Below are positions 851-40,171 of a stretch of DNA of 64,000 nucleotides, in pieces. Numbering within the stretch: the stretch's first letter is position 1; each line of letters starts with the position of its first letter. The position numbers were made by a program, and so were the translations under genes. The notes beneath the pieces are model-generated. The model was not told where the DNA came from and ran no database searches. It was given only the letters and a program-made list of their open reading frames with translations. This DNA comes from Pycnococcus provasolii (Eukaryota; Chlorophyta; Pseudoscourfieldiophyceae; Pseudoscourfieldiales; Pycnococcaceae), in the NCBI GenBank assembly GCA_938743325.2, contig OW568904.1, positions 1-64,000 on the forward strand, given 5' to 3'.

Positions 851-2180
851 GACCATGAACGGCACGCGATACGCCGAGTTCATGAAGGACAAAGTCTTTG
901 CGGCCATACGCGAGAAGATGCCTTGGGCAACTTGCGTCACCGTGCAGCAAGATAACGCCACGCCGCACGTTAAGAAGGGCAACGCCGACATCCTCAAGGC
1001 CGCCGGAGAGCCGCCGGCAGCGGGAGGTCCGCGCATCGTCACCATCGAACAACCACCGCGCTCGCCTGACACAAACGTGAACGACTTGGCTTTCTTCAAT
1101 AGCCTCGGCGCGAAAGTCTCGAAAAAGACTAAGACCTTCGACGAGGAGGAACTTGCGCAGATTGTCGAAGATGAATATAACAATTATCCCGAGGAAAAAT
1201 TGTGTGATCTGTGGAAGTTGAAGCGAGAGTTGCTACACTTGATCTTCGCAGATGACGGTGGCAACAACTACACCGTGCCACGTGGGCTAGTGCACGAGCG
1301 CACTTCGCGGGAGCTGTCGCGGCGGAACATCACGGCAAACGTGCAGACGGTCGTGCTTGACGACGACGGCGAAGGAGATGATGGGGCACTCGCTCAAGCT
1401 GGCGACGAAGAAGACGATGCCGGCAGCAATCTCGACGAGCTTGACGACGAGTATCCGAGCAGCGATGATGGCCGCAACCACGTCGGTGTCGACGAGGAAG
1501 AGGATAGTGGCGACGATGATGACGACGATCTTGCAGGAACTTCGCTCGTGGCTCAAGCTCTACCGCCTCCTCTTCCACCGGTGTCGGATCAAGCTGGTCC
1601 GCCTCCTCCGCCGCCGCTTCCGCCTCAAGCTGCTCCGCCTCCTCCTCCACCGCCGTCGGATCAAGCTGGTCCGCCTCCTCCGCCGCCGCTTCCGCCTCAA
1701 GCTGCTCCGCCTCCTCCGCCGCTTCTTCCGCCTCAAGCTGCTCTGCCTCCTCCTCCACCGCCGTCGGATCAAGCTGGTCCGCCTCCTCCGCCGCCGCTTC
1801 CGCCTCAAGCTGCTCCACCACCTTCACCGACGATGCCGGATATGACGTGGCAGTACGACGACGCAATGGCGCGTCTTCTCGGCGAGCCGGTTGCCCCGCG
1901 CGCACCTGCCCCGGCACAAGCGCTGCCGCCTCAACCTCGTCTTGCTTCACCGCCCTCATCACCACGTCATCGCGCTGAGCTATCGGCAAGGGCACGCGAC
2001 CTCCTTGCTGACCTGAGCGACGACGACGACGACGACGACGACGACATGGCCGCGGCCGCGGCTCTTGCCCGTTTGAATGTGCAGGAGGGCGTTGCCCCAG
2101 GTGCCTGTCAGACAAGCGAAGGAGGGCAGAGGCCGCGGGACGGACGAAGGCAGAAGAGAGGGCAGAAGAGGCAGAGATAG
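850..2180 (+). pseudogene. Mariner-type (plant Soymar-like, DD38/39D) transposase C-terminal half, continuing into an acidic and proline-rich tail
   Basis: The frame opens at an ATG at 672 inside the helicase fragment (in another frame), passes through the telomere repeat and then matches Tc1/mariner transposases: VTVQQDNATPHV carries the second catalytic Asp and QPPRSPDTNVNDLAFF the third, 38 residues apart, as in plant-type mariner elements. The first Asp and the DNA-binding domain are missing. From about 1340 the frame becomes Asp/Glu-rich, then (1555-1815) a tandem 69-base repeat encoding Pro blocks punctuated by SDQAG and PQAA, then another Asp run and a basic C-terminus. The tail is unlike known transposases and may be a separate low-complexity extension captured in frame. 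Truncated at the 5' end; unlikely to be active. Confidence 0.75.
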
Positions 2181-2876
2181 GGCAGGGACAAGGCCAACAG
2201 AGGGGCTGGGCCGAGCATTGCGACCAACGAAGGGATCCCCACCGCATCGTTGAACGGCCCTGTAAGTCCGTCCCATTTTTTTGTTGAATGTAGGAGGTAA
2301 ATACTGCGGTAGTCCATCGAGATGGATGATGCGGATCGCTGCCGCGTTGATCGTCAAGTGCAACGCGTTAGGCCTGCAACAAACGAACGAATCTTGGCGA
2401 ATCCATCCATCCAAGCGCTGGAAACCTTTACCCGTAGTGGAATTCGCTCAGTGGCTGACGACAATGGGAGCGCAGCACGGTCACGTGATCGCTTGATTGG
2501 GCAATTTGGACCAAATCACGAGATCGGTGGATGATGGATTTCCATCAGGGGATGAGGAGGGACGCCGCGTTGCACAGCGAGAGACAGAGCCCTGTGTGTG
2601 CAACAGTGAGGCGGTGTCGAGTACTCGAGGTGACGTCTGTGTTCTGTGGTGTTCTTCGTCATTCTTTTCTTCATCGCACTACTTAAGGTTAACTTACAAG
2701 TTTGCGAATCTTGCGCCAGCTGGTGCATGCCTGTTTCTTGTTGACCTCCTTTTTTAGTATTGCTAGTCACCACCTGGGTGTCTCCTCAGAAGATACGTCA
2801 GCAACGCTCGTCGCTCGAAGAAGAAGAAGTACTTCATCAGCTCTCCATCGACCCTGTCCCTTCAGCTCATAACCTT
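2181..2876. other. Intergenic stretch before the EF-hand gene
   Basis: No homology to a known gene is visible. It holds a short AT-richer block near 2660-2760 that probably contains the 5' leader of the downstream gene. The open frame of that gene extends upstream to 2760 without an ATG, so the leader is partly open by chance. Confidence 0.5.
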
Positions 2877-3860
2877 ATGTCTACTCCGGCTGGGAACCAC
2901 GCACTCGGCGAGGTGCGCAAGGTGCTGCACGGCGTTCGTATCGCCGACTGCCCGCCGGAACTGCGGGAGAAACTCGCGCAATATGATACCAACGGAAACG
3001 GCATCATCGACCCGAACGAACTGCCTGACCCCATGTCTGCGGAGATGACCTATCTCAAAGTCTCTTCGTTTCCCAAGAAGGTGCAACCGCTCCTGAACGC
3101 GATTGACGACGAGAAAAATGGAAAGATCGAGATGGACGAGCTCACGGATATCCTCACCGTATACGCGGACTTGAAGAAGGCGAACAAGGAAGGCTCCATC
3201 GCCATCAAGACACTTCCGAAGGAAATCCAGCCAACGCTCAAGGTGTTCGATGTCGACGGTGACGGAACGGTCGCGCCCATGGAGCTTGCTCGTGGTGCGG
3301 AGCTCTACAAAGACTCCAAGAAGACAGCCAAGCGACTCACGATCTTCAGCGGAGTTCTCTTGCTCATCCTGCTTGCTCTCGTAGGCGTCATCGTCGGCCT
3401 CGTCGCGGTGGTCGTCGAGAATAGCAAGGAGACGAAGACGGACGCGAGTGGGCTGACTCTTGCAAAGGGCACGAGCAAACCCGCCGCGATGGCCACCGTG
3501 CTCGAGCAGTCCGTACTCAACTACAACGCTACGGACGACGCTCTCGACGCCGCAAGGAACGTCAAGGTGGTGCTCGACAACGATAGCCTAGCGTCGTACA
3601 CGATAACGGGCTGGACGCGCAGTACGACTCTTCTCACGCTCTTCTCGGCGCGCGGCGACACCATCGAGTTCGCGGCGTCGGACGGCAAGATGGTCGTGCG
3701 GTCGTCCGACGGCACGGTGCTTGCGGGAGACAACAAAAACACGCCGACCGGCCGTCGACTCCAATATGGGTTCTTCGATGAAGCACATATGTTTGGGACT
3801 ATCGACGTCGTTGCCCCGGCGCAAACAACGCCGGCATATGGTAGTATTGGGGGGAAATAA
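2877..3860 (+). CDS. EF-hand protein with a single membrane span
   Basis: 327 residues from the first in-frame ATG. Three EF-hand loops are clear: residues 37-48 (DTNGNGIIDPNE), 77-88 (DDEKNGKIEMDE) and 125-136 (DVDGDGTVAPME); the first and third have full calcium ligand spacing, while the second has Glu and Lys at usual ligand positions and is probably weak. A hydrophobic helix at about 157-180 (GVLLLILLALVGVIVGLVAV) follows a Lys/Arg-rich stretch, which suggests a cytosolic calcium-sensing N-terminus. The roughly 145-residue C-terminal part has no family I recognise. It likely couples calcium to a membrane-bound partner; that role is inference. The coding end is altered by a 30-bp direct repeat (3732-3761 and 3859-3888): the stop TAA falls on the edge of the second copy. 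Confidence 0.75.
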   Translation: MSTPAGNHALGEVRKVLHGVRIADCPPELREKLAQYDTNGNGIIDPNELPDPMSAEMTYLKVSSFPKKVQPLLNAIDDEKNGKIEMDELTDILTVYADLKKANKEGSIAIKTLPKEIQPTLKVFDVDGDGTVAPMELARGAELYKDSKKTAKRLTIFSGVLLLILLALVGVIVGLVAVVVENSKETKTDASGLTLAKGTSKPAAMATVLEQSVLNYNATDDALDAARNVKVVLDNDSLASYTITGWTRSTTLLTLFSARGDTIEFAASDGKMVVRSSDGTVLAGDNKNTPTGRRLQYGFFDEAHMFGTIDVVAPAQTTPAYGSIGGK

Positions 3861-7739: not shown

Positions 7740-8027
7740 TAACCCTAGATCTAACCCTAAACAGTAAACCCTAAACCTAGAAACCCTAATCCATCAAAAC
7801 CCCAAAACAGCAGAGCCTGCGAGAACCGAACGCCCTCGCTCACTCCTCCCGAGCAGGGTCTCGGCGTAGAAGCTCCATGCACAGTGATCTGTCACGCAGT
7901 TTGCAGAAATCGTCACGCGGTAGTCCTTTTGTAAGGAGGTCGGCCAACTGATCTTTCATTCTCGTGTGCACACATGCCCGCGGCGATGGCTCGTCGTACT
8001 TTGTTATTTGTGTTCGTGATCTTCTTA
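7740..8027 (-). mobile_element. Fossil Ty1/copia LTR retrotransposon, 3' end of pol and adjoining LTR-side sequence
   Basis: On the minus strand about 7840-8027 encodes the C-terminal end of a copia RNase H region (MKDQLADLLTKGLPRDDF is the typical closing motif). Downstream of it, at 7784-7846, lies sequence also found at 61933-61993, which fits the polypurine/3' LTR border of one family. Only this small tail survives; the element is broken and lost most of its length where the inverted-repeat arm begins at 8028. Degenerate telomere-like CCCTAA units occur within 7740-7790. Age cannot be judged without a second LTR. Confidence 0.65.
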
Positions 8028-8472
8028 CCGGTTTGTGCGGTGGCGAAGGCAGCAGCGGTGGGTTGTAGCTCCGTTGCTCGAGGAGTGACCGAGTCGGCCC
8101 ATTCTTTCCGGAGGAGGTGCACAACCGGCAGCCAGCCGAGGTAGACATGGCCCCCGCGCTCGGACGGACGGAGCTGCTGTGGGCGCTCATTCACGCCGCG
8201 ACTGGAGCGCCGTCCTGTCGCCGCACGAGGAGGAGCCGCCCACTCGCGACGCGCGCCCGTGGCTCGCCAAGGTGCGCAACGGCCTGAGTGCCGCCCGCCG
8301 GCGCACGCGCGCAAAAAACAAAAAGAGGAATGGTGGTGCACCCTACGTACGCGTACGTAGGGTAGGTAGGGTAGGAGGACCTGTGCGTGCGTGGAAGAAA
8401 AATACAAACAATAGTTGCAGTACTGTGTCATATTGGCCTAACCCCTAATCGCGCCTTTTAACGCTTTTAACG

Positions 8473-8587
8473 TGAAGGTGGTCAGGAGTTCGATTCTCCT
8501 AACAGCCCTCTTCGAGAGGATCGACGAACGTCGATAACCCCGTGTTTTCACGGTTGTTTGGTCTAGTGGTATGATACCTTTTTAGGG
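8473..8587 (+). tRNA. Circularly permuted tRNA-Pro(AGG) gene, left-arm copy
   Basis: The 3' half comes first (8473-8508): loop base T, anticodon-stem GAAGG, variable TGGTC, T arm AGGAG-TTCGATT-CTCCT, acceptor AACAGCC, discriminator C. A 43-nt intervening segment (8509-8551) follows. Then comes the 5' half (8552-8587): acceptor GGTTGTT, TG, D arm GTC-TAGTGGTAT-GAT, A, anticodon-stem CCTTT, loop TT-AGG-G. Joined 5' half to 3' half, the two 36-nt pieces give a 72-nt cloverleaf: GGTTGTT pairs with AACAGCC (one G-U), CCTTT with GAAGG (one G-U) and the T stem perfectly; the anticodon is AGG (Pro), and the break lies between positions 37 and 38. The A box (TGGTCTAGTGG) therefore lies downstream of the B box (AGTTCGATTCT). 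CCA is not encoded. A T9 run follows at 8612. Permuted tRNAs are known from Cyanidioschyzon, prasinophytes, a chlorarachniophyte nucleomorph and an archaeon. Confidence 0.9.
8509..8551 (+). ncRNA. Intervening sequence of the permuted tRNA, with three small hairpins
   Basis: The 43 nt between the 3' and 5' halves would be cut out by 3'-end (RNase Z-like) and 5'-end (RNase P) processing. It can fold as CTC-TTCGA-GAG (using the discriminator C), then TCGACG-AA-CGTCGA, then CCGTG-TTTT-CACGG, whose last two G are the first two bases of the 5' half. The last hairpin would compete with the acceptor stem until processing. Confidence 0.6.
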
Positions 8588-8611
8588 CTTTGAAAAGATC
8601 CCTCAAACACA

Positions 8612-8620
8612 TTTTTTTTT
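8612..8620 (+). terminator. RNA polymerase III terminator (T9) after the permuted tRNA
   Basis: A run of nine T starts 25 bases after the end of the 5' half, consistent with Pol III termination of the permuted precursor. The inverted copy is the A run at 13850-13858. Confidence 0.75.
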
Positions 8621-8710
8621 GCTGATGCCGACTACTTCATCAAGGACGAGGCACCAAGCACGGTTGCATGGATACCACTGCCCGTTAGCTCGCCAGACTG
8701 AGGTGGGGAG

Positions 8711-9226
8711 AGGAGAGCGTGCACCCGAAGGTACGCCTACGCACCCACGGTTGCGACAGCTGTCACGTCCAAGAAGGGAACCCCACGAAGAGGGACCCAG
8801 GACGGAGAGGGAGAAGGAGGAAGGGAACGGTGGCCAGGCGCCCCAGACTGGTGGCGGCCGATAGAAAGAGGGGGGAGGAGAGAGCCCGGTTTTGGCTTAG
8901 GTCAGGGAGAAGCGCCCGGTTAGGTCGACAGGCGTTTTCACTCGGGCAAGCTTTTACGTGCTTAAGGTGCACGCTTCAGCAGTTTGTGTGTGCTTTACGT
9001 ATAAGCCGAGGAGAGTCAAGTAGTGGTTTCAGTTTTAGGTTACAGTAACGTTTGGACAGCGTTTTCTTTGAATACCTAACCCGAGGTTCCCAGCTGTCAG
9101 TTCCGGCGAGCTGCAGTGGTGAAGCAACAAGGGGCACCCATTGGTGAATTTACAGGAGAGTAGAGGACAATTAAGAAGAGGAGAGCGTGCACCCGAAGGT
9201 ACGCCTACGCACCCACGGTTGCGACA
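8711..9226. repeat. 48-bp direct repeat pair inside the left arm
   Basis: Identical 48-base copies at 8711-8758 and 9179-9226, each beginning AGGAGAGCGTGCACCCGAAG, enclose 420 bases with no recognised gene. The same pair occurs reversed in the right arm (13712-13759 and 13252-13299). It may mark a small insertion or an ancient tandem duplication. Confidence 0.85.
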
Positions 9227-9252
9227 CCGCTGATCTTGCTTGTGATCCGACG

Positions 9253-9639
9253 CTAGGTAGGTTGCTGTACGCGATTGCCTCGCCCTTCTTGCAAAATGAC
9301 CGGAATGACTTTCATGGAATCCCGGGAAACTCTGAGATTAGTGTGGTCGCGATTTGTGACGCGCGTGGGCGCGAAACGCCTCGCATGTTCGTTAGCGGCA
9401 ACAGCAGCATCCCTTTCCCTTTGTTCTTGCGCGTGCACGTGACCCCCACTCAGCAGCTCTTTGATCTCCGCGATCGTCGGGAAGTTGAGTTTCATCAGGT
9501 AATTCTGGCGATATGTAACATTCCGGTTTTGGAATGCAGAAGATGCAGGAAAACGAGGGTGACCCATTGCTCTGCGTATCTTCTCGTCCATGCAGAACTC
9601 CTCCGTCGACGACGTCTTCTCCTCAATCATGCAGCACAC
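9253..9639 (-). CDS. Hypothetical protein, left-arm copy
   Basis: An ATG-initiated frame of 128 codons with a varied amino-acid mix (IRRAMGHPRFPASSAF; YLMKLNFPTIAEIKELLSGG). No family is recognised. The plus strand is also open across this stretch, so the strand choice is uncertain. An identical frame is at 12839-13225 in the right arm. It may be an exon of something larger or a chance frame. Confidence 0.25.
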   Translation of the reverse strand: MCCMIEEKTSSTEEFCMDEKIRRAMGHPRFPASSAFQNRNVTYRQNYLMKLNFPTIAEIKELLSGGHVHAQEQRERDAAVAANEHARRFAPTRVTNRDHTNLRVSRDSMKVIPVILQEGRGNRVQQPT

Positions 9640-9918
9640 GTCGAGTCGTCGTATAGTAGCGCTGCAACCTCTGCGGCGAACGAAGCGTATGGAGCGTGTG
9701 TCGCCTTCGCTTCTTCGTACGACGCGAAGCCCGCCGCCGCCGCAGATGACGGTTAGCCACCCACCGGCACATTCGACAAATAAATACTAAATATATATGC
9801 ATAGTCACGTAACATATTATGTAACATGCATGATGGGTGGAAAATGGTCGGGTGGTGAGCGGGATCCCAAAAGTCCCCCACCCGCCCCTTGTTTTGGGGC
9901 AATGGGCACGGACCCGGT

Positions 9919-10602
9919 TCTGCATCATTCTTCGCATCATTCCACGGCGACACGAACGGGCTGCTCACGCCGTACATCCTCAAGGCGCTCAATGCCCGGC
10001 GCCGCGAGTTTGGACAGTTTGGGCGGCTGATGGTTGGCATCGATGCGAACGCGCACTGCAAGGGAGAGCCGGGCAAGAAACTAGGCATCAACACGCTGTT
10101 GGCATTCATGCGAACCAAGCGCACGTGCTCTCCTCTACTCACGTCGTGCTGGAAGCTTCAGACGTGGGAGCTCGTCAAGCACAACTTTGACTTGAGCAAG
10201 CTCGAGATGGACGACATGGTGACGACGTACAACGCGCGCACATTCCTTCAGACGCAGCTGAACAAGGCTGTGCGCGTTTCGGAGCTGCAGACGTCGAAGC
10301 TGACGGATCGCAACCCGAAGGACTTGATCGTCTACCCAGAGAGTGACTTTGTATTCATGAACCACTCCTTGCAGCGCGACAATAACGGGCGCGGCTTCTT
10401 CGACGACGCTGCATTTCCCACGCTCGACTTTCCTTCGGATCACGCGTTCTTGACGAGTGAGCTGAACCTGCGGAGGAGAAATTTCTCAGATCCGGAGCAC
10501 ATGCCGTGGGATGAAGAGCTACCCGACGGTATGCCGTGGAATCGAAAGGGTCCGATCGAGTTTGACCCAGCTGCGGTTGACGGTAACGGTGTGGAGAACT
10601 GA
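9919..10602 (+). CDS. Endonuclease/exonuclease/phosphatase (EEP) domain, 5'-incomplete, whole C-terminus
   Basis: The frame from about 9919 encodes ASFHGDTNGLLTPYILKALN, LMVGIDANAHCKG (the Asp-x-Asn of EEP enzymes), DLIVYPESDFVF and LDFPSDHAFLTSELN (the catalytic Ser-Asp-His end motif), then stops at 10602. The N-terminal half of the EEP fold, with the first Asn and the Glu, is not in frame upstream and there is no ATG before the GIDAN motif. It is either the last exon of a spliced gene or a 5'-truncated copy. EEP enzymes are Mg-dependent nucleases or phosphatases acting on nucleic acids or phosphoinositides; the substrate cannot be told. The fuller EEP protein at 54164-55951 shares the fold but not close sequence. 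The inverted copy ends at 12072, inside this domain. Confidence 0.6.
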   Translation, partial: SASFFASFHGDTNGLLTPYILKALNARRREFGQFGRLMVGIDANAHCKGEPGKKLGINTLLAFMRTKRTCSPLLTSCWKLQTWELVKHNFDLSKLEMDDMVTTYNARTFLQTQLNKAVRVSELQTSKLTDRNPKDLIVYPESDFVFMNHSLQRDNNGRGFFDDAAFPTLDFPSDHAFLTSELNLRRRNFSDPEHMPWDEELPDGMPWNRKGPIEFDPAAVDGNGVEN

Positions 10603-10756: not shown

Positions 10757-12071
10757 CTAACCAGCAGAATGAGTTTGCACAAGGCGCGCGAATGCGCCGC
10801 CGTCGCGTGCCGTTAATTCCCTCGCGGGGCCCACCTCAGCCACACGACCCGCGTCGAAAACAGCCACCTGGCGATCGTGCGCATCGTGTGCGAGCGCGAT
10901 AGCGACTCGATGCACGACGCTAATCACCGTACAGTGCGCCGCGGTTGCGTGATTGTCCGCCGCCGCCAGAACGCGCTGCTCGCTCGCTTCGTCGAGCGAC
11001 GCCGTTGCCTCGTCAAGGACAAGAATCGCGGGACGTCGAAGCACGGCGCGTGCGAGAGCGAGAAGCTGGCGCTGACCACGCGACCACGCGGCTGTGCTCA
11101 GCTTCCCGTCCAGTCCACCGCCGCTGCCGGCAATTTCCACTGGTAGGTTACGCATCGCGTCAGCAAGGCCGAGCGGGCGCAGCAAAGCCCATGCATCCGA
11201 GTCAACGCATGCGTCGCCCCCGAGATTCTCTCGCACGCTCCCTCGGAGCACCCACGGCTCCTGCGGAAGAAGTGCGATGTGTCGTCGCAGGTCGCAGCCT
11301 CGCTAGGGGAACGGTCTTCACGTCGCGACCTCCGACGAGCAGGCTGCCCGCGGTACACCCGGGTCCAGGGTTACGAATGAGCGCGGCGGCAAGAGAGCTC
11401 TTGCCAGATCCCGTTCGTCCGACCACCGCCAGTCTGCTTCCCGCGGGAATGTCAAGGTTTACGCCCCGCAGCACCGCAGGAAGGTCCATGCGGTATCGCA
11501 TCCAATAGCGTCGGAAGCGCACGCTGCTGTCAGCTGGTCATGCGTCCATCTCGAGCTCCTCCTTGGATGTCAGCGCATCGGCGGATGCCTCTAATTCCGC
11601 ATCCGGCCACTCCGGCGGCGACGACGTACCCTCGTCGTCGCTGTCGTCGTCTTCAAAAGAACCGCCCATGAGACGCAGTGTCTGCACCTCCGGCGTCGCC
11701 TCCTCGCTCACGCCTCGAATGCGCTCGACGGCGTTCATTTCCACCTCTAGCTGCGTCGCCGTCTGAACGCCGCCGGCGAGAAGGCCTGTCACCATGATTG
11801 CATTCGTGACGACGAGACCAGCGGCACCCGCGGTCAGCGATCCCGAGATGGCGAAGCCCACACTCGCGAAAGCTGCAAAGGCAACGAATGCGGAGCTCAG
11901 CGCCTCCATAGACAAGCCTAGCCAGCAGTTGGCGCTCATCAGGTGGTAAAGCACAGCACTCCGACGGTCCACGCGGCGCGCCATCGCCTTGACGTACTTG
12001 CGGATGAGATGTGCGCTGCGAAGAGGCGCAACGCCTGCGAGTGCCTCGTCAGCAATGCTTACGGCGCACGA
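10757..12071 (-). pseudogene. Decayed ABCC-type ABC transporter end (second membrane half and NBD2)
   Basis: Reading from 12071 down: IADEALAGVAPLRSAH and the last helices of a transmembrane domain (to about 11540), then DLPAVLRGVNLDI and Walker A GRTGSGKSS (about 11440), Q-loop LLPQEPWVLRGSVREN (about 11260), signature WSRGQRQLLALARA and Walker B ILVLDEATASLD (about 11030), then the H-loop region and a stop at 10757. This is the order of an ABCC (MRP-like) C-terminal half. An in-frame TGA at 11538-11540 separates the membrane part from the NBD, and the frame changes between Walker A and the Q-loop (about 11280). Homology starts exactly at the inner edge of the right inverted-repeat arm, so the rest of the gene was cut away when the duplication formed. 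Confidence 0.8.
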
Positions 12072-12559
12072 TCGTCGAAGAAGCCGCGCCCGTTATTGTC
12101 GCGCTGCAAGGAGTGGTTCATGAATACAAAGTCACTCTCTGGGTAGATGATCAAGTCCTTCGGGTTGCGATCCGTCAGCTTCGACGTCTGCAGCTCCGAA
12201 ACGCGCACAGCCTTGTTCAGCTGCGTCTGAAGGAATGTGCGCGCGTTGTACGTCGTCACCACGTCGTCCATCTCGAGCTTGCTCAAGTCAAAGTTGTGCT
12301 TGACGAGCTCCCACGTCTGAAGCTTCCAGCACGACGTGAGTAGAGGAGAGCACGTGCGCTTAGTTCGCATGAATGCCAACAGCGTGTTGATGCCTAGTTT
12401 CTTGCCCGGCTCTCCCTTGCAGTGCGCGTTCGCATCGATGCCAACCATCAGCCGCCCAAACTGTCCAAACTCGCGGCGCCGGGCATTGAGCGCCTTGAGG
12501 ATGTACGGCGTGAGCAGCCCGTTCGTGTCGCCGTGGAATGATGCGAAGAATGATGCAGA
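12072..12559 (-). pseudogene. EEP-domain gene, right-arm copy truncated by the junction
   Basis: Same protein as 9919-10602 but in reverse orientation. It is identical through GRGFFDD apart from one or two conservative changes, after which it runs into the ABC transporter relic and stops. The catalytic PSDHA motif is missing, so this copy cannot encode an active EEP domain. Confidence 0.8.
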
Positions 12560-12838
12560 ACCGGGTCCGTGCCCATTGCCCCAAAACAAGGGGCGGGTGG
12601 GGGACTTTTGGGATCCCGCTCACCACCCGACCATTTTCCACCCATCATGCATGTTACATAATATGTTACGTGACTATGCATATATATTTAGTATTTATTT
12701 GTCGAATGTGCCGGTGGGTGGCTAACCGTCATCTGCGGCGGCGGCGGGCTTCGCGTCGTACGAAGAAGCGAAGGCGACACACGCTCCAGACGCTTCGTTC
12801 GCCGCAGAGGTTGCAGCGCTACTATACGACGACTCGAC

Positions 12839-13225
12839 GTGTGCTGCATGATTGAGGAGAAGACGTCGTCGACGGAGGAGTTCTGCATGGACGAGAAGAT
12901 ACGCAGAGCAATGGGTCACCCTCGTTTTCCTGCATCTTCTGCATTCCAAAACCGGAATGTTACATATCGCCAGAATTACCTGATGAAACTCAACTTCCCG
13001 ACGATCGCGGAGATCAAAGAGCTGCTGAGTGGGGGTCACGTGCACGCGCAAGAACAAAGGGAAAGGGATGCTGCTGTTGCCGCTAACGAACATGCGAGGC
13101 GTTTCGCGCCCACGCGCGTCACAAATCGCGACCACACTAATCTCAGAGTTTCCCGGGATTCCATGAAAGTCATTCCGGTCATTTTGCAAGAAGGGCGAGG
13201 CAATCGCGTACAGCAACCTACCTAG
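12839..13225 (+). CDS. Hypothetical protein, right-arm copy
   Basis: Identical in sequence to the 128-codon frame at 9253-9639, in opposite orientation. Same doubts apply: no family recognised and an open frame on the other strand. Confidence 0.25.
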   Translation: MCCMIEEKTSSTEEFCMDEKIRRAMGHPRFPASSAFQNRNVTYRQNYLMKLNFPTIAEIKELLSGGHVHAQEQRERDAAVAANEHARRFAPTRVTNRDHTNLRVSRDSMKVIPVILQEGRGNRVQQPT

Positions 13226-13882
13226 CGTCGGATCACAAGCAAGATCAGCGGTGTCGCAACCGTGGGTGCGTAGGCGTACCTTCGGGTGCACGCTCTCCTC
13301 TTCTTAATTGTCCTCTACTCTCCTGTAAATTCACCAATGGGTGCCCCTTGTTGCTTCACCACTGCAGCTCGCCGGAACTGACAGCTGGGAATAGGTATTC
13401 AAAGAAAACGCTGTCCAAACGTTACTGTAACCTAAAACTGAAACCACTACTTGACTCTCCTCGGCTTATACGTAAAGCACACACAAACTGCTGAAGCGTG
13501 CACCTTAAGCACGTAAAAGCTTGCCCGAGTGAAAACGCCTGTCGACCTAACCGGGCGCTTCTCCCTGACCTAAGCCAAAACCGGGCTCTCTCCTCCCCCC
13601 TCTTTCTATCGGCCGCCACCAGTCTGGGGCGCCTGGCCACCGTTCCCTTCCTCCTTCTCCCTCTCCGTCCTGGGTCCCTCTTCGTGGGGTTCCCTTCTTG
13701 GACGTGACAGCTGTCGCAACCGTGGGTGCGTAGGCGTACCTTCGGGTGCACGCTCTCCTCTCCCCACCTCAGTCTGGCGAGCTAACGGGCAGTGGTATCC
13801 ATGCAACCGTGCTTGGTGCCTCGTCCTTGATGAAGTAGTCGGCATCAGCAAAAAAAAATGTGTTTGAGGGATCTTTTCAAAG

Positions 13883-13997
13883 CCCTAAAAAGGTATCATA
13901 CCACTAGACCAAACAACCGTGAAAACACGGGGTTATCGACGTTCGTCGATCCTCTCGAAGAGGGCTGTTAGGAGAATCGAACTCCTGACCACCTTCA
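13883..13997 (-). tRNA. Circularly permuted tRNA-Pro(AGG) gene, right-arm copy
   Basis: Exact inverted copy of the left-arm gene: 3' half at 13962-13997, intervening 43 nt at 13919-13961, 5' half at 13883-13918, all read on the minus strand, with the Pol III T run at 13850-13858. The flanking complementary pair (CTTTT and AAAAG) is also kept. Both copies are intact, so neither shows decay. Confidence 0.88.
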
Positions 13998-14439
13998 CGT
14001 TAAAAGCGTTAAAAGGCGCGATTAGGGGTTAGGCCAATATGACACAGTACTGCAACTATTGTTTGTATTTTTCTTCCACGCACGCACAGGTCCTCCTACC
14101 CTACCTACCCTACGTACGCGTACGTAGGGTGCACCACCATTCCTCTTTTTGTTTTTTGCGCGCGTGCGCCGGCGGGCGGCACTCAGGCCGTTGCGCACCT
14201 TGGCGAGCCACGGGCGCGCGTCGCGAGTGGGCGGCTCCTCCTCGTGCGGCGACAGGACGGCGCTCCAGTCGCGGCGTGAATGAGCGCCCACAGCAGCTCC
14301 GTCCGTCCGAGCGCGGGGGCCATGTCTACCTCGGCTGGCTGCCGGTTGTGCACCTCCTCCGGAAAGAATGGGCCGACTCGGTCACTCGGGCAACGGAGCT
14401 ACAACCCACCGCTGCTGCCTTCGCCACCGCACAGACCGG

Positions 14440-33473: not shown

Positions 33474-36400
33474 CTAACCCGAACCCTTTGATGCGAATGC
33501 ACGTGGTCGCGTAGGTCGTATAGCTTCTAGGCTCGCAAGATTTTCGATTGCTCTGAGCGTGTCCGGATGTGCATCGCCGAACAATCGTCGATATCCGTCA
33601 ATTGCCTCGTTATATAGTGACTCTGCCCCGGCCCACATGCGCTGCTGCTTGAGCAAGTTCGCGAGACTGTTGATGGAGTCGAGAGTGGATGGATGCTCAT
33701 CGCCGAGCTCGCGACGATATCCGTCGAGTACCTCGCGGTACAGCGGCTCCGCGTCGTCGTATTTTCCTTGCCGGTAGAATGAATTTGCGAAGTTGTTGAT
33801 CGCCCTAAGCGTGCCTGGATGCGTGTCGCCGAGCTCGCGTCGATATGCGTAGAGCACGACTCCGTATATCTTTTCTGCCTCGTCGTACTTGCCTTGATTT
33901 GAGAGCAATTCCGCGAGGTGATTCATGGACGCGAGTGTGTCCGGATGCGTATCACCGAGCTCGCGACGAAAACCGTTGAGCGCCTCGAGGAATAGCGGCT
34001 CCGCATCGTCGTACTTGTCTTGATCACTGAGAAGTCTCGCGAGGCCAATGATCGCCCTAAGTGTATCCGGATGCGCATCGCCGAGCTCGCGACGTCTACC
34101 CTCGAGCGCCTCGCGGTGCAGCACCTCCGCGTCGTCGTACTTGCCTTGCGCCTTGAGCAAGATCGCAAGGTTGTTGATGGACATGAGAGTGTCCGGATCC
34201 GCATCGCCGAGCTCGCGACGTTTGCCGTCAAGCGCCTCGCGGAACAGCGGCTCAGCATCGTCGTACTTGCCTTGCTCCTTGAGCAAGACTGCGAGGTTGT
34301 TGATGGACATGAGAGTGTCCGGATCCGCATCGCCGAGCTCGCGACGACAACCGTCAAGCGCCTCGCGGAACAGCGGCTCCGCGTCATCGTACTTGCCTTG
34401 ATCCATAATCACATTTGCGAGGCCGTTGATGGACTTAAGCGTGTCTGGATGTGCATCGCCGAGCTCGCGACGACGACCGTCAAGCGCCTCGCGGAACAGC
34501 GGCTCCGCGTCGGCGTACATGCCTTGATCCATAATCACGTTTGCAAGGTTGTCGATGGACTTAAGTGTGTCTGGATGCGTATCGCCGAGCTCGCGACGTC
34601 GACCGTCAAGCGCCTCGCGGTACAACGGCTCTGCCTCATAATACCTTCCTTGCTGCCGGAGCAAATCTGCTACGCTCATCAGCAGCTGCGATGTGGCTCG
34701 TTTCTCCTTATCCAGCGTATCCAACGCACTTACCGCGCTCTCCACCACCCAGCTTCGCATCTGATCTTTGATGCGCTTGTTCACCTCCGATGCGCCACCT
34801 GGATACACTTTCACCGCATAGAGAATAGCATCTCGGTCCTCTTTCTGCCACGCCTCCGCACGCTGCACGTCTATGCCGACCATCTTCATAATCACTTTGT
34901 CAGCTCCTTCATTCACCAGAAACTCCACGAACGCCTTCCGCTCCACCTCTGGCAAACATACCTCCAGCTTCGCCCCGCCATCAATCGTACTCAGAATCTC
35001 CCAGATACACCACGCACGCGTCAGCGGGATCGGATCGTCCCAAGGCATCAAGATCAGCGCAGTGTGTCCCATGCTCGCGACCGCCTCCTTGAACGTCGTG
35101 AACCACCAATCAGGCGGCACTTGCAAGCTCGCATGCAGGTTGACGGTGAACACGTCGAACCACACGAATGCATTCTCGGAGAGGCTGCTCAGCGCGTCGA
35201 CGGCATTCACGAACGTGTACTTCCACGCGTGCGACACGAATACCGTCGCGTCTTGCACTTCCTCAGGTTCTGTGTTGCTGAGCATCTCTGCGTATGGGAT
35301 TTTGACCTGTTCCGTCGCAGGCTTAACGATACCCAAGCACACGCCGTTCGTCGTCATGAGCTCGAACGGGATGTCGACATACTGCACGTTCGTGGGCTTG
35401 CCGTCGCCGTCCTTGCCAGCGGCGTTCATGTGCGTGCGGTGCTCTTGCAGGTTGTCTGCGGAGACTCGTACGATGTCGTCAGACCCTCCGCCATGTTCCG
35501 CCTTCAGGAAGTCTTTCTCAGACCACGTGTATGTCTTGCCCTTGCATGAGTCGACAAATCGCCTCAGCCACACAAGACGCAAGCCGCGCCTTGGAAACAA
35601 GGCGTCATCTTGTTGTTGTGTTCCCGATGTTTTTGTCGTTAGCATTTCACGACCATCTGTCGAGTCGCTATTATTAGTACCTGACGCTTTCATCGTTAGG
35701 ATTTCACGATCATCCGCGTAAGGATCAAATGCCAACGTTTGCGTCTTCGACTTAGTTGTCTTATCCACGTCGGGATCCCAGATTGACTGCGAGTAGTCGG
35801 GAATCGTCGCCCCCCCATCTCCTAAGAATCCTTTTAAGGCATCATCTAATCTTGATTGTAGCTGTGCGTCATTGCGCGGACCACGCTGTCGCTGCATTCT
35901 CGCCTTGTTTGGTTTTGCTTCCCTTTGTGTATTGTTCGAGTCTTCATTTGATTCTAAGCGGGTTGCTTTTTGAATGAATTGCTGAGTAGTGGGCAAGGCC
36001 TTCACCTTGAGATCATTATTTGCATCAAATTTCCGATCTTCTTTCATCTTCAAGCTGGCCAGAAACTCAAACATGCCTCCTCGCAAATATTCATTGATCA
36101 CAATCACCTGCATGTGCGCTCTCGTCACGGCACGGTAAATGTGAGATCGCGCTGTTGCGGCACTCACATCAGGCTCGTCCATGCCAACGCATATGACAAT
36201 CAAGCGCTCCAAGCCATCGAAGTTGGAGATGGTGTCCAGCACGATCCACTCTGTGTCCCCAGGCATTGAATGCTGATCATACAAAGTCACACATGCCGCA
36301 GCTTGTCGTGCAGAAATGAGCTCGATTTTTCTCTCACGATTATCATTCTCGAGGACGAGCTTCTCCAATTCATGCTTCAATCCATTCTGAAAATTCACAT

Positions 36401-39400
36401 CAGGAACAAGAATGGCGACGCGATTATGCAAAGAAAGACTCGTGTACTTCTCGCGCAGGAATGCCAGCCCCCTGAAGGTTTGCCTTGCATATGTCTGATA
36501 AGTCTTAGCAGGATCGTTCAATTCAAAGACAAATCCTTTCAGAGGAGGTCCTTCAGATTCCTGGTGGCAGTGCGTTAGCGTTTCATCTGAGCCGAGACGA
36601 AATGCGTTAGCACCGGCGATGATGCGTTTCGATGAGCGCACCACCTCGTCCAGTCGTACGTCCACCAAACCTTTGGGATATGTGCATTCATCGTCACCTT
36701 GCGATACATCGCTCAAGAGCAGAAGTTTTGTGCTCTCGTTAACATGGCACATAACAGAATCATACAAATCACGATTCCGACAAGCATGATGCGCCTCGTC
36801 CAAAATGATAAAATCGTAAGTGCGATCCCCATCACAATTTCCCTCCTCCTTGAAATCGCAAGCCCCATTTCGAATGCGCACTGATCGAGGCGACAGTTCT
36901 TCAGACGTCATGACACGAATTCTTTGCAGAAGTTCACGTCGTCTGCGCTTTGCTCGGGTAGCCAGCCATGCGCAGACAAAAAGCGCAAGAGCCGTATTCG
37001 ATGCGACGAATAAGATGGAGTCGCCCGATGTTATCCTCTTCTGAATAAGGTTGAGTGCAAAGAATGTTTTGCCCGCACCGGCAGCAGCCTTGAGGTGCCA
37101 TCCTTGCAAAGTCACATCCGACCAGTTCTTCTCAATTTCAGTAAGACGTTCAACCTGGTGCGGCGTCAAATTCTCAAGCTCAAGGATAGCACGTTCGAAC
37201 ATCTCCGCGAAGCATGACGCGTCCGTCTCCACCTTGGCATCCTTCCCGCCGCGAATATCTGCAAGCTCCTTAGTAAGCGCCTTGTCAAATTCTCCATTCA
37301 GTACCGAGTCGCGAAGCGTGTGGAGATATCCGACGTCGCTGATTGAGAGTCGGACATAGTACTGCCCAGGTGTGTCACCCACATAAACACTAACAATTGG
37401 CCTGTTCTGCGGAAGCGCTCGATCAAGGCACGAGATGAACTTATCGTCCAGCAAAAAATCATCAGCATTCAATCCATGAATGTGGACAAGAAATTCCTTG
37501 TGCAGTTCATCCGCTGTGATGTTTTTCGTGTCCTCCTTTGCCAGATCGAACTCCATCTTTTCGTCCATGTCGTTGGCAAGTGACTGTGCCTCATCATCCC
37601 GAGAGTCGTCCGAAGTGATTAGCACGCACCCTTGACACTTTTTGGTGAGTTTCCTTGCAGCCTCCAATGTTAGCGGGCCATCGCCATCGTCGTCATCGTG
37701 CTGCTCCACGGAAATCAAGTCAAGCCAAAGAAGGCTCTTCCGATCTAGAACCGCTTTGGGCACACCCCGCTCCTTCTCAGGCTCTCGAGATATTCGAGTG
37801 ATCTGCGTGAACTTGCGGTCACTCATGAAGGACGTGACCACCTCAAGCGCCACGGCGCGACTTCTAGCAGATTGCTTGTTTGCAGGCGAAGGGATATAAA
37901 TTTGCAGACACAAATCACGCTTGCGCTTTGTCTGAATGTGATCATTTAGCGCCAACTTGATCTTACTCATCGTGTCGATATCGCATGCCCATGGGCGGAG
38001 ATCATTCATGTCATCGAAATGGACGATGCCGTCAGTTGATGTATGCTTCTGTCTAGAGATGTGCAGCCAATCTTGATCACCACTCATCGTAGCACTTGGT
38101 TGCCACGCCACCGGATCCTGAGAGGTCAGCTGGCATGTGAGTCGTTCAGGGGAGATATCCGGGATAGCGCGCAGCATGTCAGACTCACATCCGCAAACGT
38201 GCACAGCTTCCATCACTGGGCGAATCAATTGCACAATCTCCTCCTCTCCGTCAACGTCGAACAAGTCCGCCTGAATTGAAATGACCGTAGTAATTCCCGC
38301 ACGGCTCAGACGACGCGCAGCTTTCCTTGCGCCGTACTTCAGGCATACGACGACGATGGCTGGTGGCTGAGTAGCGTTGCGTATAAGCTCGCATAAGTCC
38401 TCCAGTGAACGCCCTTCACCTCTCGAGGAAGGCTGTTCCCAGCCAAATCCCATACCGCACCAGACGAGAGCATGCACAAGCCCCCACTTGATATCTCTAA
38501 TCAGCTGCTCAGCATCTCCGTCATTCAAGAAAATTGGCGTATACTTCCGAGCCTTCCACTGCCACTGCTCTTCGAGTAAATCATTTCGCAATTTTGAGAG
38601 GGATTCCTTGAATCGTGCTCGGCTGTAGCCGCTGCCCACAGCGACCGCTGAACTCTGGACCATGATATGCGCGAAGAAGTGCGAGGAGGCGGGATTCGCC
38701 TTTTTGTCGCGGGCTCTGAGTTCCACGTGCGGATCAAGGTTCGCGCGCTTCCTCGCCTCTTCAAGACGTTTCACCAGCTTGTTCACACCCACATTCCAGT
38801 ACTCATTGTCTCCGCGATTTAAGTCAACCCAGTCAACTTTGCCGAGTTCCTTGAGGTCATCCGGCGCACTGGCGATGAATTCGCCGACGCGCTTTTTGTC
38901 GTCGACCCGTACGACGGGCTGAATGGCCACCCCTGCGCTTTTTGCCCAACTCAGTTCCTTCAGGCAGTATTTGCGTCGGAAGAATGCGGTGTCTTCGTTG
39001 TCTTTGTCGATACCTCCGTCCGTGACGATGGCGATTACCATGGTTGAGTTTTTCGAACCTTCTTCCATGGCAGCGACATCACGTTTTTCCATTTTCACGT
39101 CAAGCCACACGTCGAGCCCTCTTTCTTTCAGGGAGAAGTAGAGTTCGACGGCAAGCGTCGTCGCGTTGCCGTCGCGCTGCGAGTGGCTGATGAAGATGTC
39201 CCAGTGTCCAGGTTCGTTGATGACTTCGGGGGCCTCGCTCCTATTTCGCCCATACGTGTCGTTTCGTTTAGTTCGGGCATGCGCTTCTTCTTCTGCGTGG
39301 TTTGAGGATTTGGCAAGCTCGGCTTCTTGAGAATCATCAGCAACAACCTTAGCGCCGTGCAAGGAGGTAAACTTCGCGTCTTCTGAGCCTGAGGTGGATG

Positions 39401-39413
39401 GCGCACACCCCAT
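33474..39413 (-). CDS. Giant TIR - SF1 helicase - TIR-like - TPR protein, predicted lipid-anchored
   Basis: 1,979 residues from ATG 39413. The start is chosen because it gives MGCAPSTSGS, a classic N-myristoylation plus palmitoylation site. TIR 1 (about 66-215) runs from GHWDIFISHSQRDG to YCLKELSWAK with the NADase-type Glu in KEL. A region of unknown fold follows (about 220-760). The SF1 helicase/DUF2075-like core has Walker A AAGAGKTFFALNLI (~776), Walker B FIILDEAHHA (~870) and a motif VI-like IYRAVTRAHMQVIVI (~1100). A second, TIR-like domain starts ATVFVSHAWKY (~1390) and has AWCIWEILST (~1474). Nine 42-residue TPRs of kinesin-light-chain type (about 1570-1955, e.g. NLAVLLKEQGKYDDAEPLFR) close the protein. 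It resembles TIR-STAND-TPR sensors, with a helicase in place of the NB-ARC. A role in sensing nucleic acids and making NAD-derived signals is inference. Confidence 0.85.
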   Translation of the reverse strand: MGCAPSTSGSEDAKFTSLHGAKVVADDSQEAELAKSSNHAEEEAHARTKRNDTYGRNRSEAPEVINEPGHWDIFISHSQRDGNATTLAVELYFSLKERGLDVWLDVKMEKRDVAAMEEGSKNSTMVIAIVTDGGIDKDNEDTAFFRRKYCLKELSWAKSAGVAIQPVVRVDDKKRVGEFIASAPDDLKELGKVDWVDLNRGDNEYWNVGVNKLVKRLEEARKRANLDPHVELRARDKKANPASSHFFAHIMVQSSAVAVGSGYSRARFKESLSKLRNDLLEEQWQWKARKYTPIFLNDGDAEQLIRDIKWGLVHALVWCGMGFGWEQPSSRGEGRSLEDLCELIRNATQPPAIVVVCLKYGARKAARRLSRAGITTVISIQADLFDVDGEEEIVQLIRPVMEAVHVCGCESDMLRAIPDISPERLTCQLTSQDPVAWQPSATMSGDQDWLHISRQKHTSTDGIVHFDDMNDLRPWACDIDTMSKIKLALNDHIQTKRKRDLCLQIYIPSPANKQSARSRAVALEVVTSFMSDRKFTQITRISREPEKERGVPKAVLDRKSLLWLDLISVEQHDDDDGDGPLTLEAARKLTKKCQGCVLITSDDSRDDEAQSLANDMDEKMEFDLAKEDTKNITADELHKEFLVHIHGLNADDFLLDDKFISCLDRALPQNRPIVSVYVGDTPGQYYVRLSISDVGYLHTLRDSVLNGEFDKALTKELADIRGGKDAKVETDASCFAEMFERAILELENLTPHQVERLTEIEKNWSDVTLQGWHLKAAAGAGKTFFALNLIQKRITSGDSILFVASNTALALFVCAWLATRAKRRRRELLQRIRVMTSEELSPRSVRIRNGACDFKEEGNCDGDRTYDFIILDEAHHACRNRDLYDSVMCHVNESTKLLLLSDVSQGDDECTYPKGLVDVRLDEVVRSSKRIIAGANAFRLGSDETLTHCHQESEGPPLKGFVFELNDPAKTYQTYARQTFRGLAFLREKYTSLSLHNRVAILVPDVNFQNGLKHELEKLVLENDNRERKIELISARQAAACVTLYDQHSMPGDTEWIVLDTISNFDGLERLIVICVGMDEPDVSAATARSHIYRAVTRAHMQVIVINEYLRGGMFEFLASLKMKEDRKFDANNDLKVKALPTTQQFIQKATRLESNEDSNNTQREAKPNKARMQRQRGPRNDAQLQSRLDDALKGFLGDGGATIPDYSQSIWDPDVDKTTKSKTQTLAFDPYADDREILTMKASGTNNSDSTDGREMLTTKTSGTQQQDDALFPRRGLRLVWLRRFVDSCKGKTYTWSEKDFLKAEHGGGSDDIVRVSADNLQEHRTHMNAAGKDGDGKPTNVQYVDIPFELMTTNGVCLGIVKPATEQVKIPYAEMLSNTEPEEVQDATVFVSHAWKYTFVNAVDALSSLSENAFVWFDVFTVNLHASLQVPPDWWFTTFKEAVASMGHTALILMPWDDPIPLTRAWCIWEILSTIDGGAKLEVCLPEVERKAFVEFLVNEGADKVIMKMVGIDVQRAEAWQKEDRDAILYAVKVYPGGASEVNKRIKDQMRSWVVESAVSALDTLDKEKRATSQLLMSVADLLRQQGRYYEAEPLYREALDGRRRELGDTHPDTLKSIDNLANVIMDQGMYADAEPLFREALDGRRRELGDAHPDTLKSINGLANVIMDQGKYDDAEPLFREALDGCRRELGDADPDTLMSINNLAVLLKEQGKYDDAEPLFREALDGKRRELGDADPDTLMSINNLAILLKAQGKYDDAEVLHREALEGRRRELGDAHPDTLRAIIGLARLLSDQDKYDDAEPLFLEALNGFRRELGDTHPDTLASMNHLAELLSNQGKYDEAEKIYGVVLYAYRRELGDTHPGTLRAINNFANSFYRQGKYDDAEPLYREVLDGYRRELGDEHPSTLDSINSLANLLKQQRMWAGAESLYNEAIDGYRRLFGDAHPDTLRAIENLASLEAIRPTRPRAFASKGSG

Positions 39414-40171
39414 GATGGTGACCAGTGGCCACCACCACCTGTTATGGTGCCAAGCCCAAGCCCAAGCCACAGCCCAAGCCACAGCACTTCTTCTTGCTTG
39501 AAGCTTGACGCACGCAAGGCAGTCAGGCAAGCGAGTCAGGACACACACACACTCACTCACTACACACTCACAACTATCTGAGCCGACGCCGCCAACACGC
39601 AAGCACGCGTGCTCCTGATACTGACAACGCCGAGCCGCCGAGCCGCCGAGCGTGATGGCCTTGAGCGTGATTTTAGGGCCCACTAACGGCCCACTGCGTG
39701 CGGGTCCCTCCCCTTTTTCCGAGTTTTCCCCAAGAACTCGGGGGGCGAAAGGGTTAGGGTTAGGGTTTGGCCGTTAGTAGGGTGGATGTGTCTCTCCCCT
39801 CCATTTAGCATTTCCGGGATACCTCGTTGGTTCATTTTCAAGAAACGTGAGGGAAGATCCCGGCCCCCGCGGGATCCCGGTCGATCTGGTTAGACCAAAA
39901 AAAAGGATTGTGGATGGCGCATACACGTGTAACGATGATATAGTTCTTCAATGACGATGCCCATGGAGGTAGTGGAGGTATGGATAGTCGGTCGGGACCG
40001 CCTTGCCGCCCCCGCCGAGACCGATCGGGCTTCAATCGACAATCGTCTGTCGGGTTGTTTTAGTGCGCGCCACGCAAGATGAAAACTCGAAGCTGACCCG
40101 CGCCAAGATGACGATGGCGGCGGGGATGTCGTCTGCATCGTCAGTGCGCTTCGAGTTCGGCGTGAACTCCG
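39414..40171. other. Intergenic region upstream of the TIR-helicase gene
   Basis: Just before the gene is a CCAAGCCCAAGCC-like repeat. 39751-39768 is an interstitial TTAGGG block. The rest has only short open frames; none is called. Confidence 0.55.
39751..39768. repeat. Interstitial telomere repeat in reversed (TTAGGG) orientation
   Basis: Three GGGTTA units. This is the first in the window in the opposite orientation to the chromosome end. Confidence 0.85.

Follow-up and report, generated by a model that had tools for sequence, protein, structure and literature searches.

A permuted tRNA-Pro(AGG) gene at a chromosome end of Pycnococcus provasolii, within a nuclear tRNA set that appears largely permuted and carries introns of spliceosomal appearance

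Permuted tRNA genes numbered 34 in all in a 2014 review. In the prasinophytes Ostreococcus and Micromonas nearly all of them are of type II, i.e., broken between positions 37 and 38, and four prasinophyte genomes were reported to contain three to six permuted genes each (Ser, Cys, Leu, iMet, Arg, and Asn, with no Pro) (PMC3978253). In Cyanidioschyzon merolae 34 of 43 tRNA genes were reported to be disrupted, with 11 permuted genes that differ in break position and with introns of the bulge-helix-bulge (BHB) type (PMC3978253). Algal permuted tRNAs are described in the same source as maturing via a circular intermediate. In the green alga Auxenochlorella the tRNAscan-SE set looked incomplete until permuted genes were detected (PMC12633428).

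Here we describe a tRNA-Pro(AGG) gene of Pycnococcus provasolii, a marine green alga. The gene resembles those of prasinophytes in its nuclear, green algal setting, its 37/38 break, its BHB-like junction, and its linker, which falls within the reported range of 1-74 bp (PMC3978253). Since type II permuted tRNAs are known from prasinophytes, the gene alone is of a known kind; as far as our searches reach, the novelty lies in the extent of permutation and in spliceosomal-looking introns within tRNA genes. Unlike in the prasinophytes, 23 of the 26 nuclear tRNA species that we recovered from P. provasolii are permuted, nine of these also contain GT-AG introns, and many lie in inverted pairs. The set is similar to that of C. 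merolae in that it contains permuted and intron-bearing genes, sometimes combined in one gene, and a T stretch beyond the 5' half, while it differs from what is reported for that alga (PMC3978253) in that 37/38 is the break position of all permuted genes recovered and in that the introns at ectopic sites have a spliceosomal look. It also differs from that of Auxenochlorella, for which the available part of the account (PMC12633428) makes no mention of spliceosomal introns in tRNA genes and states no gene counts.

The window, i.e., the whole stretch of 64,000 nucleotides analysed here, corresponds to bases 1-64,000 of contig C44 (264,359 bases) in an assembly of 32,333,900 bases and 46 contigs, and it begins at base 1 with telomeric CCCTAA repeats (1-316) that mark a chromosome end. 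The genome of P. provasolii CCAP190/2 was reported to comprise 44 chromosomes (32.2 Mb), a mitochondrial genome of 24.3 kb, and a plastid genome of 80.2 kb, with chromosome 44 measuring 0.26 Mb at a GC content of 55.5% (PMC11130579). We assign the window to the end of chromosome 44; contigs C45 (24,277 bases) and C46 (80,243 bases) carry organellar tRNAs. The main text of the genome paper (PMC11130579) contains no word beginning with 'tRNA', and the open-licence literature that we searched yielded no account of permuted Pycnococcus tRNAs, although a report elsewhere is possible. In another part of the window, a long frame on the minus strand (33,477-39,683) matches TIR, helicase-like, and many TPR domains in Pfam.

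The tRNA-Pro(AGG) gene was delimited by sequence and by covariance model. Its 3' half (positions 38-73, 36 nt) occupies 8,473-8,508 on the plus strand and consists of position 38, the anticodon 3' strand GAAGG, the variable loop, the T arm, the acceptor strand AACAGCC, and the discriminator C. It is followed on the same strand by a linker of 43 nt between the tRNA ends that lacks any T run of six or more (8,509-8,551) and by the 5' half (positions 1-37, 36 nt; 8,552-8,587), which consists of the acceptor strand GGTTGTT, the D arm, the anticodon 5' strand CCTTT, and the loop TTAGGG. The 3' half is thus encoded before the 5' half on one strand, the layout of a type II permuted gene, and the two halves in biological order give a 72-nt cloverleaf with the anticodon AGG that ARAGORN called as tRNA-Pro(agg). 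The preliminary description had placed a permuted tRNA-Pro(AGG) at 8,473-8,587, and both halves, their coordinates, and the break that it set at 37/38 proved right. Its account of the stems, in which all paired with two G-U pairs, needs a correction: the 20 listed pairs are all standard, while the G-U pairs number three (3-70, 10-25, and 31-39), and the D stem is limited to three pairs because 13-22 is T-T.

The surroundings of the two halves contain signals expected of a single gene. Immediately upstream is a leader, TTAA followed by CG (8,467-8,472, plus strand), and all four nucleotides of TTAA can pair with TTAG at 8,582-8,585 (positions 32-35). In a BHB that spans positions 37 and 38 this pairing would be the 4-bp central helix, the part of the structure that was scored. 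A run of nine T followed by GC, which resembles a Pol III terminator, lies beyond the 5' half (8,612-8,620, plus strand), and an upstream element, GTGTCA, which is common to other permuted and non-permuted nuclear tRNA genes, lies at 8,425-8,430 on the same strand. Judged by such signals, the locus would be a single transcription unit, since the signals lie outside the two halves and none lies in the linker. The halves, their order, the cloverleaf, the junction pairing, the terminator-like run, and the upstream element can all be read directly in the DNA; the processing steps considered further below are those that we infer.

The gene lies inside a subtelomeric inverted duplication, as had been described. 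Its left arm (8,027-10,406, plus strand) begins approximately 8 kb from the CCCTAA telomere at base 1, and its right arm (12,071-14,438, minus strand) contains a second tRNA-Pro(AGG) copy that is identical over 115 nt (13,883-13,997, minus strand; 3' half 13,962-13,997, linker 13,919-13,961, 5' half 13,883-13,918). The duplication was the sole long inverted repeat listed by a repeat search of the window. The spacer between the arms contains fragments that match ABC transporters in more than one frame (10,757-11,984, minus strand). Inverted pairs were found at ten nuclear tRNA loci, located on C44, C32, C9, C7, C28, C34, C18, C26, C15, and C3, with the two copies approximately 3.6-8.3 kb apart on one chromosome each and mostly convergent. 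Two of these pairs contain two tRNA genes per arm (two Val genes on C7 and two Ser genes on C34). On C26, C15, and C34 one copy was read, and the partners (C26:22930, C15:152197, C34:490765, and C34:490564) are known from matching D arms and introns. With as many as ten of the recovered tRNA loci in inverted pairs, assembly artefacts, i.e., fold-back contigs, might be suspected, yet this is very unlikely given that the window arms (approximately 2.38 kb) differ in 20 of 2,381 aligned columns and that the matching arms at six loci outside the window, approximately 1.2-1.9 kb of the stretches compared, are 97.4-99.9% identical. Furthermore, the P. provasolii genome was reported at 444-fold HiFi coverage with a QV of 58.2 (PMC11130579). 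As a putative explanation for the likeness of genuine inverted copies, gene conversion between the arms would keep them alike.

We found that ARAGORN, and Rfam at gathering scores, returned nothing in the window in genomic order, as anticipated in the preliminary description, which held that standard finders miss such genes. A covariance model of the permuted cloverleaf (R1), whose training set included the Pro gene, scored it at 52.7 bits. A second model (R2) was trained on 18 artificially permuted sequences, comprising 16 tRNAs from the organelles plus nuclear Trp and Tyr, which are not permuted in the genome, i.e., without any natural permuted gene. In a scan of the kind that had been proposed for permuted tRNAs, R2 found both Pro(AGG) copies at 44.1 bits with an E value of 1.6e-15 in 64 kb, while its third, next-best match in the window had an E value of 7.7, so the gene is not a chance arrangement. 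Two folding results speak against the model. The stability of the Pro precursor folded alone in genomic order, a test that proved uninformative, was not significant (z = -0.98), and the minimum-energy fold of the joined halves (-19.7 kcal/mol) differs from the cloverleaf (-16.2 kcal/mol).

We asked whether a working tRNA-Pro(AGG) lies elsewhere, in which case the halves in the window could be tRNA pieces placed together by chance or a permuted relic that no longer works. A complete ordinary gene elsewhere, together with a lack of junction reads from this locus, had been named beforehand as what would speak against the locus; the gene search, the part of this test that was run, came out negative. 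Across the whole assembly, the Pro D-arm pattern with up to two mismatches matched seven places, namely the two permuted Pro(AGG) copies, two permuted Pro(TGG) copies that form an inverted pair on C32, and three places without a tRNA (L036-L038); no ordinary Pro gene was among them, and the pattern would miss a Pro gene whose D arm is interrupted or diverges further. The Rfam tRNA model RF00005 gave 29 matches in the whole assembly, 27 of them above the cut-off, with 63 of 587 candidates scored. Among these 27, three are nuclear, namely an intron-bearing Tyr (C11) and two intron-bearing copies of Trp (C3). The two matches below the cut-off, both on C9, are an inverted pair of permuted elongator tRNA-Met genes. 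Because RF00005 scored that fraction of its candidates, an ordinary gene could have been missed, and the expression of the permuted gene is a prediction from its sequence. Against a relic stand the E value of a model trained without the gene, the identity of the two copies, the promoter-like and terminator-like signals that are common to other tRNA genes, 22 further species with the same layout, and the lack of any other Pro gene at up to two D-arm mismatches. In addition, ARAGORN sees 23 organellar tRNAs in 15 loci, and RF00005 found 22 of them, although these loci were themselves picked by the RF00005 search. Accordingly we give the relic only a very slight chance, and our data argue strongly that this is a genuine type II (37/38) permuted nuclear tRNA-Pro(AGG), present in two identical copies within a heavily rearranged tRNA set.

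We surveyed the nuclear tRNA set of this one assembly with D-arm patterns and by reading of the loci, which recovered 25 species, and an intron search added one more, Ile(TAT). The resulting set of 26 species is incomplete; it comprises 23 that are permuted at 37/38, three that are non-permuted with introns, and none that is uninterrupted. Fourteen of the permuted species contain no further intron: Pro(AGG), Pro(TGG), eMet(CAT), Gly(TCC), Val(TAC), Val(AAC), Val(CAC), Arg(CCT), Thr(TGT), Glu(TTC), Asn(GTT), Ser(TGA), Leu(TAG), and Ser(CGA). For eMet(CAT) a break at 36/37 is equally possible. The non-permuted species are Tyr and Trp, with introns at 37/38, and a Met that is present in two similar direct copies on C23 and contains a GT-AG intron at 28/29 together with a short intron at 37/38. 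Breaks elsewhere in the tRNA may be under-counted, since the survey and the models were aimed at 37/38, and genes with an interrupted D arm would escape, since the patterns require a contiguous one. Asp, Gln, His, most Leu, and other Arg, Ala, Gly, and Ile species were not found with the D-arm patterns. Eleven nuclear D-arm places (C23:18616, C32:134530, C7:591971, and eight with three mismatches) stand outside the survey. Several D-arm hits, for example L036-L038, L046, L047, L049, and L051-L055, were rejected as chance since they had no model match or T arm; L050 was likewise rejected as a tRNA, and its flank contains a relative of an intron of tRNA-Ala.

ARAGORN provided a separate check of the gene models. 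Once the halves were joined, it called 22 of the 23 permuted species with the modelled anticodon, and it also called joined Met, Tyr, and Trp; Ile(TAT), which has a long D loop, was missed. In controls, it called 0 of 23 in genomic order, 0 of 9 with the GT-AG introns retained, 56 of 506 when halves of different genes were mixed, and 0 of 1,150 shuffled sequences, i.e., it passes 11% of chimeric halves. In 49 nuclear loci of approximately 3 kb each (second copies and chance hits included) ARAGORN found no tRNA, while it found ordinary tRNAs at every one of the 15 organellar loci; the D-arm patterns also match C45 and C46. Since ARAGORN finds none of these genes in genomic order and the Rfam tRNA model finds few, such tRNA sets are easily missed. 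Individual genes show features of their own. The acceptor of Ala(CGC) contains G3-U70, the alanine identity pair, the variable loop of Gly(CCC) has only 3 nt, which speaks against its model, and Thr(AGT) has G58 and not A58.

We next considered the junctions of the permuted genes as a group. In 20 of the 23 (all but Phe, whose leader lay outside the sequence read, Ser(AGA), and Ile), positions 32-35 and the leader form 48 of 80 possible pairs of the BHB central helix. Leaders re-dealt among the genes gave 38.4 +/- 3.0 pairs, 48 was reached in 23 of 20,000 deals, and offset 0 was the best of 17. All four pairs are present in five genes, including Pro(AGG), one pair in four genes, and none in Gly(CCC). 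The BHB is therefore imperfect in single genes, and in some, namely Ser(CGA), Leu(TAG), Thr(TGT), and Arg(CCT), the terminator starts 1-4 nt past position 37 and leaves little room for an outer helix. Overall, the junction pairing fits cutting by the tRNA splicing endonuclease.

T runs of at least 7 follow 21 of the 23 5' halves (up to 90 nt examined, less where the locus ended), and in 18 of these 21 the run is followed by GC. These terminator-like runs are nearly uniform, mostly T7-T10 and then GC, and as a background, among 3,434 stretches of 90 nt in the window, 3.9% contain at least 6 T and 0.3% contain T7GC. No such run was found for Gly(CCC) within 90 nt or for Lys within 51 nt. Upstream, GTGTCAC with up to one mismatch is found in 18 of 25 genes (15 of 22 permuted and 3 of 3 non-permuted) compared to 9.4% of window stretches, and it is located ahead of the 3' half in permuted genes and ahead of position 1 in non-permuted ones. 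At this threshold it is absent from the remaining seven, Pro(TGG), Gly(TCC), Lys, Ser(TGA), Ser(CGA), Cys, and Ala. It lies mostly 20-50 nt upstream, often preceded by TATA-like letters, and in several tRNA genes the motif GGGGATACCGGTTCA lies closer to the 3' half; GTGTCAC and GGGGATACCGGTTCA are possible Pol III promoter elements.

Since T runs lie after the 5' halves and GTGTCAC lies before the 3' halves, these signals point to one transcript that runs from the 3' half through the 5' half. They also bear on whether the halves could be transcribed separately and joined in trans, as a split tRNA encoded side by side. Short T runs in some linkers (T7 in Thr(TGT) and T6 in four others) would suit separate transcription, but the linkers of the other 22 species lack a T run of 7 or more, the kind of run that follows nearly all 5' halves, and the upstream element, where present, precedes the 3' half. 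Moreover, the linkers of eMet, Ile, Thr(AGT), and Lys, with 5-12 nt, leave no room for a promoter and a terminator, and we consider joining in trans extremely unlikely.

GT-AG introns, 18 in total and 69-80 nt in length, were found in 10 of the 26 species, i.e., nine permuted species and Met, with one to four introns each. Single introns interrupt Thr(AGT) at 30/31, Cys(GCA) at 8/9, Gly(CCC) at 61/62, Ser(AGA) at 29/30, and Ile(TAT) at 6/7. Ser(GCT) contains one intron at 28/29 and another in the variable arm, Ala(CGC) contains three at 31/32, 47/48, and 64/65, Lys(CTT) three at 8/9, 33/34, and 67/68, and Phe(GAA) four at 6/7, 23/24, 47/48, and 61/62. These gene models were drawn by hand with GT-AG in mind. 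The 17 introns of the nine permuted genes were put through an excision test, in which excisions of 40-110 nt were ranked by a tRNA-structure score with the other introns of the gene fixed as modelled. The modelled GT-AG excision was unbeaten in 17 of 17 cases, against 1,260-3,053 alternatives each. For 16 of the 17, the top-scoring set comprised one to seven excisions (a single one in six cases), of which exactly one was GT-AG. For Lys 33/34 the top-scoring set was loose, and because 140 excisions tie, two of them GT-AG, this site rests on its splice signals; a nearer CTTA yields an identical product without AG, and the form with AG was adopted. In nine of these gene regions, GT-AG ends occur at a background of 0.29% among excisions of 60-90 nt. 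An earlier excision search served only as a lead and was replaced, as spurious introns scored as high as or higher than the intron-free model in several intron-free genes, including Pro(AGG).

The GT-AG ends, together with a branch motif, make the tRNA introns look spliceosomal (U2-type). All 15 introns put to this and the following test, i.e., all but those of Ser(AGA), Ile, and Met, contain CTNAY at -40 to -14, while among shuffles 4.9 of 15 contained it on average and 11 at most. At the same sites, BHB-type pairing amounts to 21 of 60 pairs and is complete in 0 of 15, so these sites lack the pairing of BHB introns. An endonuclease (BHB) intron at an unusual position, with a splice-site look that is coincidental, has a counterpart in C. 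merolae, for which BHB introns at the ectopic sites 14/15 and 55/56 are reported (PMC3978253, Table 1). For P. provasolii we regard this origin as highly improbable: judged by tRNA structure alone, the optimum includes a GT-AG excision at all 17 sites despite the rarity of such ends in the background, the branch motif is universal among the introns tested while no site shows four of four BHB pairs, and near-identical copies occur in protein-coding genes, where excision restores the frame. We found no report of spliceosomal introns in tRNA genes in the open-licence literature that we searched, and a report elsewhere is possible.

The copies in protein-coding genes belong to the intron at 64/65 of tRNA-Ala, which has at least 40 matches in the assembly, itself included (40 of 53 candidates scored), at 76-100% identity. 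Relatives interrupt two further tRNA species, Ser(AGA), which forms an inverted pair, and Ile(TAT). We analysed 12 of the other places with their flanks, along with Ala and one Ser(AGA) copy; the place in Ile(TAT) is one of these 12. Five pairs of flanks (L099-L102 and L104), when joined after excision, give open frames of 124-165 codons. Pfam matches on joined flanks comprise a dynein motor region in L099 (E = 1.4e-40), by which a dynein heavy chain is one protein-coding host of the family, an FAD-binding domain in L102 (E = 4.5e-8), and a TPR match in L101 that lies under the Pfam cut-off. At the six remaining places the flanks are short, and their best frame stays open for 52-54 codons; for L108 and L110 two frames are open, so that neither is preferred, and the short flanks of L106 and L107 gave no Pfam match. 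The sites are partly non-independent, as the surroundings of L099 and L100, and of L104 and L105, are near-identical. A weaker relative, at L050, matches the Ala intron at 83% over 41 nt and interrupts a frame that by its motif we take to be RNA-polymerase large-subunit-like.

Introners were found in 175 of 3,325 genomes and are more likely in aquatic organisms, and target-site duplications or terminal inverted repeats are present in only part of the known introner families (Gozashti et al. 2022, PMC9860276). Like those introners, the P. provasolii family consists of near-identical GT-AG introns scattered over many genes of one genome; unlike them, it has members inside tRNA genes, and neither 'tRNA' nor 'Pycnococcus' occurs in the available text of that study (PMC9860276). 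Many similar copies in unrelated genes were found for one family, that of Ala 64/65, and our data indicate that it is introner-like, i.e., a mobile spliceosomal intron, so that the genome contains at least one such family. By our reading, its presence in Ala, Ser, and Ile represents three separate insertions into a target of a few thousand bases. A single genome-wide repeat family does not account for all GT-AG introns, as this holds for Ala 64/65 and fails for Phe 6/7, whose copies in the assembly are limited to Phe and Lys. The introns at Phe 6/7 (L091:255-328) and Lys 8/9 (L090:268-344) are 87% alike over 69 nt at sites two positions apart, for which intron sliding, gene conversion, or separate insertion are alternatives.

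Taken together, our data suggest that Pol III would make one transcript that comprises leader, 3' half, linker, 5' half, and trailer. The tRNA splicing endonuclease and a ligase would then circularise it by cleavage and joining at the BHB, and RNase P and tRNase Z would excise the linker from the circle, followed by CCA addition. Where GT-AG introns are present, the spliceosome would have to remove them before the tRNA folds and its ends are processed. We consider it likely that permutation at 37/38 extends to nearly the whole nuclear tRNA set and that mobile spliceosomal introns have invaded this set, such that some essential tRNAs, namely Phe with four introns and both Ala and Lys with three, depend first on the spliceosome, next on the endonuclease and ligase via a circle, and last on end processing. 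If so, Pol III tRNA precursors would be obligatory substrates of the spliceosome, which would tie translation to the spliceosome in a new and direct way and would break the clean partition that assigns the introns of nuclear tRNAs to the tRNA endonuclease and those of mRNAs to the spliceosome. The nearest precedent comes from fission yeast, in which the U6 snRNA, made by Pol III, contains an mRNA-type spliceosomal intron that is spliced and is thought to have arisen by reverse splicing (PMC10484740); that case is one intron in an snRNA, compared to 18 introns in 10 tRNA species, known from sequence, in P. provasolii. Introners in tRNA genes would also give a sensitive view of insertion sites. 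With 23 of the 26 recovered species permuted, what was a curiosity becomes the rule, and P. provasolii may serve as a natural setting in which to study the spread of permutation and its causes.

Two further permuted genes showed minor features. In a permuted tRNA-Met (L030:1520-1597) the linker consists of 5 nt, CCAAT, in which CCA abuts the discriminator and possibly encodes the 3' end. YrlA, a bacterial Y RNA-like RNA, mimics tRNA in permuted order, and YrlA (RF02553) was the sole Rfam match, up to an E value of 0.1, in 20 loci scanned, located on the permuted Arg(CCT) (L066:1471-1594, minus strand). At 32.5 bits against a gathering score of 69, the match reflects a resemblance in layout below the cut-off and not kinship.
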